Assembly: GCF_021233415.1 (NCBI RefSeq) | Contig: NZ_CP089466.1 | Span: 2,232,001 to 2,296,000, forward strand | DNA from: Halobacterium litoreum | Lineage (GTDB): Archaea; Halobacteriota; Halobacteria; Halobacteriales; Halobacteriaceae | Length of the DNA: 64,000 nucleotides | Reading direction: 5' to 3' | In this document: in pieces, positions 15,051-26,404 of the stretch | Position numbering within the stretch: the stretch's first letter is position 1 | How the letters are laid out: each line of letters begins with the position of its first letter | Position numbers and translations under genes: made by a program | Notes under the pieces: model-generated | Told to the model about the DNA's origin: nothing | Seen by the model: only the letters and a program-made list of their open reading frames with translations | Databases searched by the model: none

Positions 15051-15229
15051 TTCTTCACTACGTTCATCACGACCGGACGAGCCCACGCTCACTTCGTTCG
15101 CGTGGACGCCGTCCGGACGTAATTTTTCGCGCTACCACGACGGTGAGCGACGGCCGTGTCGCTCGCGTGGACGCCGTCGAACCGGCGGTTCGACGTGCCC
15201 GCGGCTTCGCCGCGGACGCCGTCCGGACG
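15038..15229 (+). repeat. Copies of the tRNA-Arg 3' end trailing the gene
   Basis: The tRNA 3' end CGCCGTCCGGACGT (15038-15051) recurs exactly at 15107-15120 and, without its last base, at 15217-15229. Both copies, and a partial one near 15165, follow GCG(TG)GAC. Between them are palindrome-like GCTCACTTCGTTCGC segments and a T-run (15123-15127). No gene was seen in 15051-15270. The motif is short and GC-rich, so chance is a fair alternative, but the pattern parallels that after tRNA-Val and tRNA-Phe. Confidence 0.6.
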
Positions 15230-15270
15230 GTCTCTATCGCGTCGAACAGTGCTTGCTAAGAGTAGCGCAG

Positions 15271-15423
15271 TCAGTCCCGGAGGCCACGGGAGCGCGAACA
15301 GATGCCGCAGTAGGGTTGGCCGGCGTCGCCGCGGCGCCACTGTCGCCAGTCCTTCGAGGTGAAGGAGGCGCCGCAGTCGGCACACGAGTCGTCGGGGGAC
15401 AGGCCGTGTTCGACGCCGGGCAT
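15271..15423 (-). CDS. Small zinc-ribbon protein
   Basis: A 50-residue protein with two CxxC knuckles, CADC (about 19-22) and CGIC (about 41-44), spaced as in a single treble-clef or zinc-ribbon finger. Haloarchaea have many such tiny one-zinc proteins, some affecting swarming and biofilm formation; which function applies here is unknown. The ATG at 15423 gives MPGVEHGL; an earlier start would add a basic stretch unlike the rest. It overlaps the upstream part of the divergent DUF309 region but not its chosen coding sequence. Confidence 0.72.
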   Translation of the reverse strand: MPGVEHGLSPDDSCADCGASFTSKDWRQWRRGDAGQPYCGICSRSRGLRD

Positions 15424-23013: not shown

Positions 23014-23087
23014 GGGTTCGTGGTCTAGTTGGTTATGACGCGGCCCTTACAAGGCCGAGGTCGGTGGTTCGAATCCGCCCGAACCCA
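23014..23087 (+). tRNA. tRNA-Val(TAC)
   Basis: GGGTTCG pairs with CGAACCC, the D-arm contains GGTCTAGTTGGTTATGAC, the anticodon stem CGGCC/GGCCG encloses CT-TAC-AA, and the T-arm GGTGG/CCGCC encloses TTCGAAT. Discriminator A; CCA not encoded. Nineteen bases of its 3' end are duplicated 142 bases downstream. Confidence 0.95.
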
Positions 23088-23339
23088 CTTACTGAGACGT
23101 CGCCGAGTAGCGACGCGTGTGTCGCTACGAGCGACCGAAGTAGTGGGTCGCGAATTCGAACCCTGGAAGACGCAGCGCCGAGCGCAGCGAGGCGACCGTC
23201 TTCCTCCGGTGAGAATCCGCCCGAACCCACTCACTTTCTGCGACGAGCGAACGCGAGGAGCGAGATGAGCGTGAGGGCGATTCGAGTTCTGGAAGACGAG
23301 CGACAACGAATCTTCCACCGGTGAGCGTCCGCCCGAGAC
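23071..23339 (+). repeat. Tandem modules carrying copies of the tRNA-Val 3' end
   Basis: GAATCCGCCCGAACCCACT (23071-23089, tRNA 3' end plus two bases) recurs exactly at 23213-23231. A third, decayed copy (TCCGCCCGA) lies at 23328-23336. Copies two and three share a preceding segment CTTCC(T/A)CCGGTGAG. Each is preceded by a T-loop-like ATTCGA(A/G) stretch (23154 and 23280) followed by TGGAAGACG, whose GGAAGA pairs with the TCTTCC just ahead of CCGGTGAG to make a hairpin. CGACGAGCG...GCGAGGAGCG at 23241-23262 also occurs after tRNA-Phe at 26289-26309. No gene was seen in 23088-23388. Confidence 0.8.
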
Positions 23340-23388
23340 AGACCGACTGCTGCGCCCATCGGCCGCCGCTCTCGGGAACTTGTTGGTA

Positions 23389-23398
23389 ACTAAACTTA
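23389..23398 (+). promoter_or_regulatory. TATA-like box of the surface cassette
   Basis: ACTAAACTTA is centred about 31 bases before the ATG at 23425 and is the only AT-rich run between the tRNA-Val repeats and the first cassette gene. It predicts a nearly leaderless transcript covering the four coupled genes to 26124. Confidence 0.5.
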
Positions 23399-23424
23399 TG
23401 CGCGTTCTGGCTGTTCTGTGGGCC

Positions 23425-24015
23425 ATGGCCAAACGGTGGCGTTCCCTCCGACGGCGTGGTTTTCTCACTGGGTTGGTGTCCGGTATGGTGGCTGTCGCCG
23501 GGTGCAGTTCGACGCCGTCCGACGCGCCCGATTCGACGGCGACGCGACCGACGACGACGTTCGGGTACGGCGGGACGCCGGTCGAGACGACAACGGCGAC
23601 CACTACGCGAGCGCCGTCGGCGACGACGCGAACCACGGTAGTCACGACGGCGACGGAGACGCAGATGACCACGGAGACGCAGACGACCGCGACCACGCCG
23701 ACGACGGCAGCGGAGACGACATCGGAGTCGAGTGACGAGAGTGGGCGGGGTGGCGGCAGTCCGGGCGGCGGTGGCGGAAATCCGGGCAGCGGGAACGCCG
23801 GTGGCGGAAATCCGAGCGAGGGCGGTGGCAGTCGTGGCGGCGGTGGGAACGCAGGCGGCGGCGGAGACACGGAAAGCGGTGGCGGACCGGTGACCACGGC
23901 GGTGGGTTCGACGAACGAGCGAACGACCGCCGAGCCGACGCGGACGACCACGGAGGCGTCGTCGGAGTTCGGCGTGCAGGGGTACGGCGAGTACGGCTAC
24001 GGGGGGACGGCATGA
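23425..24015 (+). CDS. Thr/Gly-rich Tat lipoprotein, first gene of surface cassette
   Basis: A 196-residue protein. The N-terminus has a twin-arginine signal (SLRRRGFLTGLVSGMVAVAGC) with lipobox VAGC, so folded export and lipid anchoring on the outer face are predicted. The mature protein is low complexity: a Thr/Ala stalk (about 40-105), a Gly/Asn/Ser-rich middle (about 110-155) and a second Thr-rich run, ending in EFGVQGYGEYGYGG. A matching FGYGG occurs near residue 50. Thr-rich stretches would carry O-linked sugars. The last four bases overlap the next gene (ATGA). No family is certain; a stalk or anchor for the following fibre-like proteins is my inference. Confidence 0.72.
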   Translation: MAKRWRSLRRRGFLTGLVSGMVAVAGCSSTPSDAPDSTATRPTTTFGYGGTPVETTTATTTRAPSATTRTTVVTTATETQMTTETQTTATTPTTAAETTSESSDESGRGGGSPGGGGGNPGSGNAGGGNPSEGGGSRGGGGNAGGGGDTESGGGPVTTAVGSTNERTTAEPTRTTTEASSEFGVQGYGEYGYGGTA

Positions 24016-24446
24016 GCCAGGAGTACCCGACGACCGACAACCACGACTTGAACACGCCGACGAGGGGCGCGCGAGACTGGAACCGCCCGCTGAACGAGAA
24101 CTTCGAGGTGCTGGACGAACTGCTCGCAGGCGTCACCGAGGACGCGGTGTACGCGGACTACGTGTTCCTTCGACGACGCGACGACGAACCCGACGACGAC
24201 GAATACGACGACGACGAGGTGGCGCTGTACGTCGACGACGACGGCGACCTCTACACGCGGCGCTACGACGAGGACGAGGAACGAGTGGCTGGCGACGGCG
24301 GCGACGGCAAAGGGGTCGACCTCGCGGCGGACGGCGACGTCGTCGCGTCCGGGGTGCGACGAATCGAGGTCGGACGGGGGTTGCGGGTGGAAGAAGACGG
24401 TGACAGCGCGAGAATCGAGGCGGACTTCGACATGGGGACGCTGTAG
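24012..24446 (+). CDS. Fibre-associated acidic protein of the surface cassette
   Basis: A 144-residue protein. The start NHDLNTPTRGARDWNRPLNENFEVLDELL (about 9-37) resembles the N-terminal segment of tail-fibre and beta-helix surface proteins in haloarchaea and viruses. An Asp/Glu run at about 55-70 is followed by a segment of repeated Asp/Gly turns and a strand-like end (RGLRVEEDGDSARIEADFDM). It overlaps the lipoprotein gene by four bases and is followed after two bases by the esterase gene, so coupling is tight. Function unknown; a linker or fibre subunit is plausible. Confidence 0.65.
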   Translation: MSQEYPTTDNHDLNTPTRGARDWNRPLNENFEVLDELLAGVTEDAVYADYVFLRRRDDEPDDDEYDDDEVALYVDDDGDLYTRRYDEDEERVAGDGGDGKGVDLAADGDVVASGVRRIEVGRGLRVEEDGDSARIEADFDMGTL

Positions 24447-24448
24447 CC

Positions 24449-25363
24449 GTGCCGGCTATCGACGTGTTCGCGGTGGGCGGGCAGAGCAACGCCGTCGGCA
24501 GAGGGCGGCGGTCGCGGAGCCCGCGCCCCGAGCGAGGGACCGCCATCGAGTACCGGCATACGACCGACTCGCTCGCGGACCCGCTCCGAGACCCCGTGCT
24601 GGGGAACGGGGACGCCGCGGACACGGGGAGCGCGTGGCCGGCGTTCGCAATCGAGTACCACGAGCGCGTCGGGCGGCCGGTGGGAATCGTCGGGGCGGCG
24701 CGCGGGTCGACGGCGCAGTCGTCGCGGGCGGGCGGCCGGCCCGGCGACTGGGACGGCGGGGCGCTGGACGAGGACTTGATTCGGCTCGCCGAGGACGCGC
24801 TCGCGGCGTTCGAGGCCGCGGGCTACGACCCGACGTTCCGGGGCGTGCTCTGGCACCAGGGCGAGCGCGACGCGATGGAGATAGACCGCGGGAGCGCGAC
24901 CCGGCGGGACTACCGACGCGCGCTGGAGGGGATGATAGCGAGGTACCGTGACGCGTTCGGCGCCGGGATGCCGGTCTGGCTGTTCGAACTCGGGCGTCGC
25001 GCGTCGGGCGACACATCGGGGTTCCGGGCCGTTCGCGAGGCCCAGCGCGAGGTCGTGCGCGAACAGTCCCGCACCTACCTCGTGTCGGACAAACAGGCGT
25101 CGTTCCCGGAGCGCGGCCTCCAAGAGAACGAACTCCACTACGCCCAGGCGGGGTACGACGAGATGGGGCGCGTCGGCGCGCGGAACGTCGCCGCACGCGT
25201 CGACGGCGAGTCGTTCCAGGCGAAACGCAGCGCGGGCCGGCGGGTCGACGCCTACACGGGCGCGCCGGGCGAGCCAGTGATGAGTCTGGACGACGGCCGG
25301 CTCTCGGTTCACGACGGCGAGACGCCGGGCGGGAACGACCTCGCGAGGGAGGACGAGCGATGA
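24449..25363 (+). CDS. SASA/GDSL-type esterase with C-terminal fibre domain
   Basis: A 304-residue protein starting at GTG (two bases after the previous stop). The first 250 residues are a sialate-O-acetylesterase (SASA, SGNH) domain with nucleophile Ser13 in GGQSNAVG, block RGVLWHQGERD (His136, Glu139) and catalytic His230 in ENELHYAQAGYDEMG. Such enzymes remove acetyl groups from sugars. The last 45 residues (about 259-296, KRSAGRRVDAYTGAPGEP... HDGETPGG) resemble the small N-terminal domain of phage tail-fibre or receptor-binding proteins (Mtd_N-like), as in the next gene. No signal peptide was seen, so export would have to come with the lipoprotein partner or otherwise. It overlaps the next gene by four bases. 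Confidence 0.78.
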   Translation: MPAIDVFAVGGQSNAVGRGRRSRSPRPERGTAIEYRHTTDSLADPLRDPVLGNGDAADTGSAWPAFAIEYHERVGRPVGIVGAARGSTAQSSRAGGRPGDWDGGALDEDLIRLAEDALAAFEAAGYDPTFRGVLWHQGERDAMEIDRGSATRRDYRRALEGMIARYRDAFGAGMPVWLFELGRRASGDTSGFRAVREAQREVVREQSRTYLVSDKQASFPERGLQENELHYAQAGYDEMGRVGARNVAARVDGESFQAKRSAGRRVDAYTGAPGEPVMSLDDGRLSVHDGETPGGNDLAREDER

Positions 25364-26124
25364 CCGTCTTCCAGTTCAAGCGCGGGACGCGAGAGGAACA
25401 CGAGGACTACGTCGGCGACCCCGGCGAGATTACGGTGCTCGTGGACGACGGCTACCGCCCGGTCGTCCACGACGGCGTGACGAGCGGCGGCATCCCGCTG
25501 GCGTTCGCGGACGAGGACGCGGACCGCCAGCCCAGCGACGACGGCGGCCGCGGCATCCCGGCGTTCGTGCGGGACTTCGAGACGGGCGACGCGGCGCTGT
25601 GGGACGCGGACGCCGGCTTCGAGGTTCGGTGGCCGGGGTCGCTCGCGGGCGACTACAGCCTCCACTTCGACGGCCGCGGCGACACGGACGACAGTTTCGT
25701 GGCCGAGACGACGTTCGAACGCGACGAGTACGCGGGCGTCTCGTGGCTGTGGCGCGTGCCGTCCGTCCGCGAAGACGGCCGCCCCCAGGTCTGGGCGCGC
25801 TCCGGAGAGACGGACGCGTTCCTCGTCGCGGTCGACGACGGCGGCGTCGCGGGCGCCGGCCACCTCCTGACGTGGGACGGCGACGAGTACGTCGACACCG
25901 GCGTCGAACTCGACGCCGACACGACCTACGAGGTGACGGTGTCGAACGTCGACTACGACGACGGTCGGTTCGACGTGAGCGCGCGAACGCTCGACGGCGA
26001 CCGCGTCGGGCGCTCTTCGAATCACGCGTTCTGGGGCGACGCCACGGGTGTCGACGCGCTGCGAGTCGTCGGCGCGGGCACCGAGCAGTACGTCGACAAC
26101 GTCGCCGTCGACCGGCCAGCGTAG
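25360..26124 (+). CDS. Protein with Mtd_N-like fibre domain and lectin/LamG-like domain
   Basis: A 254-residue protein. Residues 4-49 (FKRGTREEHEDYVGDPGEIT... VVHDGVTSGGIPLA) match the short receptor-binding-protein N-terminal domain that in viruses joins fibres to tails. Residues about 65-254 look like a concanavalin/LamG-type beta-sandwich (GIPAFVRDFETGDAALWD, GDYSLHFDGRGDTDDS, closing VDNVAVDRPA). The protein is acidic, without cysteines or membrane segments. It ends the cassette 43 bases before a T-run. Sugar binding is inferred; I found no secretion signal. Confidence 0.72.
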   Translation: MTVFQFKRGTREEHEDYVGDPGEITVLVDDGYRPVVHDGVTSGGIPLAFADEDADRQPSDDGGRGIPAFVRDFETGDAALWDADAGFEVRWPGSLAGDYSLHFDGRGDTDDSFVAETTFERDEYAGVSWLWRVPSVREDGRPQVWARSGETDAFLVAVDDGGVAGAGHLLTWDGDEYVDTGVELDADTTYEVTVSNVDYDDGRFDVSARTLDGDRVGRSSNHAFWGDATGVDALRVVGAGTEQYVDNVAVDRPA

Positions 26125-26166
26125 CGACGCGTCCGGACCGCGTCGCCGTCGCCGATTCGAAATCCT

Positions 26167-26172
26167 TTTTTC
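26167..26172 (+). terminator. T-run after the surface cassette
   Basis: Six T residues (26167-26172) follow the last cassette stop by 43 bases, in GC-rich sequence. T-tracts of this kind terminate archaeal transcription. The run also lies about 28 bases before tRNA-Phe and could instead be part of that promoter. Confidence 0.4.
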
Positions 26173-26199
26173 GGTAGTCCCCCTCGTTCGGAGTGCGAG

Positions 26200-26273
26200 C
26201 CGCCTTAGCTCAGACTGGGAGAGCACTCGACTGAAGATCGAGCTGTCCCCCGTTCAAATCGGGGAGGCGGCAC
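26200..26273 (+). tRNA. tRNA-Phe(GAA)
   Basis: GCCGCCT pairs with AGGCGGC, the D-arm reads GCTCAGACTGGGAGAGC, the anticodon stem CTCGA/TCGAG encloses CT-GAA-GA, and the T-arm has CCCCGTTCAAATCGGGG. Discriminator A; CCA not encoded. Its last 22 bases reappear intact 131 bases downstream. Confidence 0.95.
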
Positions 26274-26404
26274 TTCTGTGATTCTAACCGACGAGCGTAG
26301 CGAGGAGCGTTCGAATCCAGAACGTGTCCTGACCCGATTTGTGCTCGTGAGTCGCGCGCAGCGAAGCGAGCACGTCTCACGGCGTTCAAATCGGGGAGGC
26401 GGCA
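26252..26404 (+). repeat. Duplicated tRNA-Phe 3' end with intervening module
   Basis: The 22 bases 26252-26273 (CGTTCAAATC ... GGCGGCA) recur exactly at 26383-26404. The spacer holds CGACGAGCG-ta-GCGAGGAGCG (26289-26309), also found after tRNA-Val, then a T-loop-like GTTCGAATCC with pairing ends (CGTTC/GAACG), and an inverted repeat GTGCTCG...CGAGCAC (26341-26373). No protein gene was seen in 26274-26440. Confidence 0.85.

Follow-up and report, generated by a model that had tools for sequence, protein, structure and literature searches.

The window, that is, the whole 64,000-nucleotide stretch of the Halobacterium litoreum contig NZ_CP089466.1 that was analysed, contains two tRNA genes that are followed by short repeated units; all features of these two loci lie on the forward strand. 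The anchor gene of the first locus encodes tRNA-Val(UAC) (23014-23087), was identified with Rfam and ARAGORN, and has its tail, from G53 in the T-loop to the discriminator N73, at 23067-23087. Val unit 1 begins with hairpin A (GTAGCGACGCGTGTGTCGCTAC, 23107-23128), recognized from its sequence and of a type common after many tRNAs. An inverted T-loop arm (GCGAATTCGAAC, 23150-23161) follows, which is an inverted repeat of the tRNA tail and conforms to the arm pairing seen in 187 elements. Next is core hairpin B (AAGACGCAGCG..GCGACCGTCTT with the tip CGAGCGCAGCGAG, and then CTCCG; 23162-23208), which is supported by covariation and by a match to model R1 (C1:2255148-2255222). The unit ends in a direct copy of G53-N73 of tRNA-Val (23209-23229, 19 of 21 positions matching), found by repeat comparison and by the tail-copy search.

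A decayed second unit spans 23230-23341. Its hairpin A (23241-23262) is located by a pattern match and belongs to a unit that adjoins the tRNA directly in a related genome, G002. The decayed inverted T-loop arm (GCGATTCGAGTT, 23277-23288) is a direct repeat of that in unit 1, and repeat comparison also places a decayed core hairpin B at 23289-23320 and a strongly decayed copy of the tRNA tail at 23321-23341. The other anchor gene, tRNA-Phe(GAA) (26199-26272, Rfam and ARAGORN; tail at 26252-26272), carries a hairpin A region with T-loop-like arms of its own (GATTCTAAC .. GTTCGAATC, 26280-26317) and an inverted T-loop/T-stem arm apparent in the sequence and in the predicted fold (CCCGATTTGTG, 26333-26343). 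Its core hairpin B (GTGAGTCGCGCGCAGCGAAGCGAGCACGTCTCAC, 26344-26383), assigned by an R1 match and core comparison, is identical at tRNA-Phe of genome G011 and at tRNA-Tyr of G003. The direct copy of G53-N73 (26384-26404) matches at all 21 positions in the repeat comparison and tail-copy search.

An initial annotation had reported a 19-nt exact repeat after tRNA-Val, which we recovered at 23071-23089 and 23213-23231 with the reported offset of 142. Its 22-nt exact repeat for tRNA-Phe (26251-26272 and 26383-26404) is also present, but the offset is 132 rather than 131. T-loop-like hairpins do lie near the repeats, as it had described. It had also proposed a module, CGACGAGCG(N2-3)GCGAGGAGCG, as the part common to the two loci. 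The two matches are where it placed them (23241-23262 and 26289-26309), but the module occurs only these two times in the 2.7-Mb genome, within the variable hairpin A, which rules it out as a shared core. What is truly shared is the inverted T-loop arm, together with core hairpin B and the copied G53-N73 segment; the inverted copy before each direct copy, the core hairpin, the decayed second Val unit and the occurrence of the element at about half of the tRNAs were absent from the annotation.

The gap between the two loci (23380-26124) holds tail-fibre-like cargo: one gene encodes a SASA esterase-domain protein (24449-25363), and the other a protein whose N-terminus is Mtd_N-like (25360-26124). 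Since tRNA-Val and tRNA-Phe are only ~170 bp apart in G013, a genome of the same family, this interval seems to be a hot spot for variable insertions.

Own-tail copies and their borders

Copies of a tRNA's own 3' end are common in this 2.71-Mb haloarchaeal genome (G000). When the last 30 nt of each of 41 tRNA genes (matches to the Rfam tRNA model) were used as queries, exact copies of at least 13 nt were found within 500 bp downstream of 17 genes, and copies of at least 17 nt downstream of 8. The same exact-match criterion yields 0 of 41 upstream, and control pairs of a tRNA with the flank of a different locus have a tail copy in 1.3% of cases. Downstream own-tail copies are thus far above chance. 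The 17 of 41 is an unbiased frequency for this genome, whereas loci in related genomes were chosen by element matches and do not estimate frequency. Reading all downstream regions in this genome revealed a shared plan, in which the tRNA end is followed by a pyrimidine-rich stretch and hairpin A; an inverted T-loop segment then leads to core hairpin B, and a direct repeat of the tRNA end closes the unit. The element is present at about half of the tRNAs, with two or more units at the His, Val-UAC, Gln-CUG and Arg-UCU loci. Copies of 3' ends are found at 0 of 379 protein genes, which rules out a general copying of gene 3' ends.

Several further arrangements deviate from this plan. A second, shorter class of copy lies 3' of tRNA-Arg(GCG) (window positions 15051-15300), where hairpins are followed by the T-stem 3' strand and acceptor only (CGCCGTCCGGACG, two copies); similar short copies occur at Gly-CCC, Gly-UCC and Arg-CCU. 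Core hairpin B also lies directly 3' of an apparent aspartyl-tRNA synthetase gene, aspS (L106, G000 C1:2108900-2110600), with imperfect copies of the apparent aspS 3' end (GTTCCCGCGAGACC..) farther downstream, a weak exception to the rule for protein genes and possibly a non-tRNA use of the same design. Intergenic core hairpins whose arms match no tRNA were seen at L105 (G000 C1:308300-310000), where an arm overlaps the end of an apparent purS gene, and at L110 and L111 in G021.

We aligned 225 copies to their own tRNAs at the discriminator. The block of identity corresponds to G53-N73 with sharp borders on both sides; identity is mostly 0.95-1.0 inside the block, lower at the last two positions, and ~0.3-0.45 outside. 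The requirement for at most 3-4 mismatches in copy detection inflates the inside values and leaves the borders unaffected. None of the 225 copies is followed by CCA, which rules out copying from mature tRNA by reverse transcription. The copies also track their host: of 191 sites where a genome's tRNA departs from the tail most common for its isoacceptor, 178 have a copy that agrees with its own tRNA.

These borders bear on the possibility that the units are passive, functionless repeats, produced by slippage, unequal crossing-over and short gene conversion among chance copies of tRNA ends. Arrays that differ between species are in keeping with such an origin, as are near-identical tandem units, for example at tRNA-Leu(UAG) of G013 (L120), where three 72-bp units lie head to tail and have one mutated tail base in common. 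However, plain tandem duplication would not respect both G53 and N73 as limits, and simple duplication is ruled out as the whole story by the sharpness of both borders. Passive repeats also do not predict a shared covarying core with an inverted arm, nor absence from protein genes (0/379) and from genomes outside Halobacteriales, and we consider this explanation distinctly unlikely.

Folding and covariation of the units

Units are 70-320 bp long. Each opens with hairpin A, continues with the inverted T-loop arm and the covarying core hairpin B, and closes with positions G53 to N73 of the host tRNA, copied in direct orientation. Single-sequence folds and an alignment of 17 sequences yield the same stem. 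In the alignment, 88% of stem cells hold a standard pair, and 19 of 29 stem pairs exhibit two-sided changes. The covariation score was reached by none of 500 shuffles; relatedness among sequences can by itself lift a score above shuffles, but slid controls fall far below the observed value. Among 187 elements, the inverted arm pairs with the copy over G53 to about position 63, and the acceptor part is unpaired. Because ungapped pairing with the inverted arm ends near position 63, mimicry of an acceptor/T-arm minihelix is ruled out as a general rule.

Of 189 cores, 103 carry the core tip GA.CGNAG.GA on the tRNA-sense strand, and 1 carries it on the opposite strand. Mini-hairpins with GNA loops are exceptionally stable in DNA (PMC4686876), so a stable tip of this kind would fit folded DNA, and would be compatible with RNA as well. 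The palindromic tip GARCGNAGYGAG occurs 103 times in this genome (G000) versus 59 times for the reversed control, and many occurrences are distant from tRNAs; it is therefore a general intergenic hairpin of this genome. At tRNA-Phe of G021 (L136) and in Natribaculum breve (L151), array units repeat a longer part of tRNA-Phe, starting from the anticodon arm (GAAGATCGAGCTGTCCCC), and their hairpins are sited inside the T-arm.

Because the element is on the transcribed strand, its structure could equally act in RNA. The main rival to an explanation at the DNA level is a structured trailer RNA, transcribed with the tRNA and involved in termination, control of read-through, or RNase Z cleavage at the copied N73, in which selection on pairing or processing would keep the tail copy. 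A conserved covarying structure on the sense strand, a copy whose end coincides with the RNase Z site, N73, and structure that outlasts sequence among orthologues are all consistent with this function. However, the inverted arm pairs with positions 53-63 and not with the acceptor, so that pairing does not account for the exact copy of 64-73, and the gain, loss and reordering of units, exchange of hairpins A and B, and inversion of cores described below are signs of events in DNA. We regard the trailer as unlikely.

Distribution and rearrangement between species

We searched 84,980 species genomes with a core pattern that contains almost nothing of the tRNA. It matched 63 stretches, 62 of them haloarchaeal and one in a planctomycete that looks like a chance match; viral contigs contained no match. 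Fifty-seven of 65 pattern matches have a same-strand tRNA at most 600 bp upstream, and several others are at contig edges, extend beyond the examined stretch, or are beside N-masked tRNAs. The tRNA-adjacent matches span at least 25 isoacceptor types in Halobacteriales. In a sample of the phylum, model R1, whose E-values are rough, found matches in all 7 Halobacteriales genomes and in none of the 53 others; a separate search of G027, also from Halobacteriales, yielded no R1 match. Plasmid and phage records likewise contained no element match, which gives a viral or plasmid origin no support. The Rfam search returned no family for the element besides tRNA, and no earlier description was found in the open-access literature. 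The element is a class-wide haloarchaeal feature of tRNA loci and, as far as Rfam and the open-access literature reveal, seemingly undescribed. The suggestion of the initial annotation that these are an uncharacterized repeat family recruiting tRNA 3' ends is supported by this class-wide range, the tRNA specificity and the conserved structure. One core match, in Halobacteria archaeon HArc-gm2 (L204), is near 17 predicted tRNA genes that lie on one strand within ~5 kb.

Within the genus, most cores descend together with their tRNA. In 33 cases, versus 3.9 expected, the closest core belongs to the same tRNA in another genome; in 13, versus 9 expected, it belongs to a different tRNA of the same genome, which is no excess and leaves recent genome-wide transposition unsupported. 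The predominance of descent with the own tRNA (33 versus 3.9 expected) indicates that exchange between different tRNAs is rare. Near-identical cores across tRNAs do occur (Phe/Tyr identical; Arg-CCU/Gly-CCC 0.96), and these, together with the 25 isoacceptor types, are what a selfish miniature mobile element would produce by inserting at tRNA T-loops and copying the tail upon insertion. We nonetheless hold such an element to be very unlikely, given cores that descend with the tRNA, the lack of excess among same-genome relatives, and absence from viral contigs, plasmids and phages.

Among orthologous pairs, mean identity is 0.90 for the copy, 0.77 for the core, 0.65 for the spacer (random 0.44) and 0.54 for the downstream flank (random 0.52). 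Individual pairs can depart from this gradient: for tRNA-Phe, G009 and G011 have spacer and core identities of 0.98 and 0.62, and G000 and G011 have 0.54 and 1.00. These opposite identities indicate that hairpins A (in the spacer) and B (in the core) were exchanged independently. The sequence that follows a tRNA in one species can also follow the tail copy in another, as seen in 35 pairs with at least 75% identity and in 0 of 514 control pairs. Whole units differ as well. At Ser-CGA, G002 has one extra tRNA-proximal unit relative to G012, and G001 has one extra relative to G010. At Leu-UAG, two spacers occur in opposite order in G002 and G012. At Val, G002 lacks unit 1, and the module-bearing unit, which is second in the window, directly follows tRNA-Val in G002. 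The junctions of these gains, losses and reorderings, observed between species within a genus, are exactly at the tRNA end, N73. In G020, the Phe and Ser cores are inverted between their arms.

Proposed cassette exchange, and integrative elements, at tRNA tails

With even confidence for and against, we propose that these are arrays of non-coding cassettes, anchored on tRNA genes, that recombine at the T-loop and tail. A tandem array of small non-coding cassettes sits directly 3' of many haloarchaeal tRNA genes, and the observed gain, loss and reordering of cassettes and swapping of A and B modules would come about through recombination at the T-loop and tail repeats. Every cassette would end in a working tRNA 3' end, so the tRNA would stay intact whichever tail became its own, and since any tail might do so, selection would repeatedly test each copy and keep copies and tRNA alike. 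Since a T-loop crossover has to leave the end of the gene restored, this process would account for a block of exactly 21 nt with two sharp borders and for the tracking of the own tRNA. The exact N73 junctions in reordered arrays, along with A/B module exchange, point to recombination at T-loop arms and tails, which we infer to be the maintaining process; the cassette structure may matter as folded DNA. Homologous recombination or slippage between the 21-bp repeats would yield the same gains and losses of units, and the least certain part of our proposal is the involvement of a site-specific recombinase in place of ordinary homologous exchange. Cassette exchange leaves the spread to at least 25 isoacceptors unexplained.

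Several known systems resemble these arrays in part. The consensus of the integron attC R box is RYYYAAC / GTTRRRY. The haloarchaeal arms, GATTYGAAC / GTTCRAATC, differ from it in having C as base 4, so that the T-loop GTTCRAA is off consensus. In a folded attC site (PMC2727003), the outer arms pair, the asymmetric spacer is unpaired, the inner stem has an asymmetric loop, and the tip is variable. In predicted folds and covariation, the haloarchaeal units resemble this layout of arms, spacer, inner stem and tip. As in integron arrays, units are gained, lost and reordered at one anchor, although here between species rather than in real time; unlike integrons, the haloarchaeal units have no coding cassettes, the anchor is a tRNA gene, and the arms follow the host tRNA. 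An extended proposal is that tRNA genes are the anchor of a haloarchaeal cassette recombination system in which T-loop-armed hairpins would be folded single-strand sites for a putative recombinase, and tail copies would keep the anchor gene functional and also be spare attachment sites for invading integrative elements. This reading is tentative, and on balance improbable.

Among bacteria, the tyrT (rtT) repeats of E. coli are tandem 178-bp units, each beginning with the last 19 bp of tRNA-Tyr, at one tRNA. They share with the haloarchaeal arrays the tandem arrangement 3' of a tRNA and the presence of the tRNA's own 3' end in each unit, but the units described here are archaeal, occur at 25 or more isoacceptors, include an inverted T-loop arm and a covarying core hairpin with an exact G53-N73 border, and match no catalogued RNA family (in Rfam, tRNA only). 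Palindrome-associated transposable elements (PATEs) of Haloquadratum are dispersed and linked to IS605 ends (PMC3119063). PATEs and other small Haloquadratum repeats are likewise short, non-coding and haloarchaeal with palindromes; unlike such elements or MITEs, the matches to our pattern are not dispersed, 57 of 65 being downstream of a tRNA. The combination of a G53-N73 copy, an inverted T-loop arm and the core hairpin is a testable signature; it points to a DNA-exchange system anchored on tRNA genes, or else to a structured trailer of the tRNA. The arrays also bear on the question of why genomes change so often at tRNA genes.

The initial annotation had considered the copies as scars of tRNA-targeting elements. 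Duplications of tRNA 3' ends as attL and attR flank kilobases of DNA with an integrase gene, for example in Haloquadratum (PMC3119063). The copies resemble such sites in that each extends from a crossover point within the tRNA as far as the gene end, as the G53-N73 block does, but units of 70-320 bp are too short for an integrase, contain a conserved paired hairpin, and are inherited with the tRNA, so a simple scar reading is not supported. The tails are nonetheless used by real integrative elements. In this genome, the Lys-CUU array is ~28 kb from tRNA-Lys, past a gene for an integrase (Pfam Phage_integrase, E = 8e-9) that lies next to an att-like 3'-end copy (L104, G000 C1:1325500-1327200; L013, C1:1352891-1355964); this is the only case of an integrase adjoining an att copy. 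This arrangement indicates that an integrative element entered at tRNA-Lys and displaced the Lys array. Tail copies may be spare attachment sites, apparently usable by tRNA-targeting integrative elements, as one case suggests: the left end of the element joins tRNA-Lys itself in this genome, and a related left end (80% identity over 135 nt) joins a tail copy in G009, so that in at least this instance a tail copy could take the role of the attachment site.
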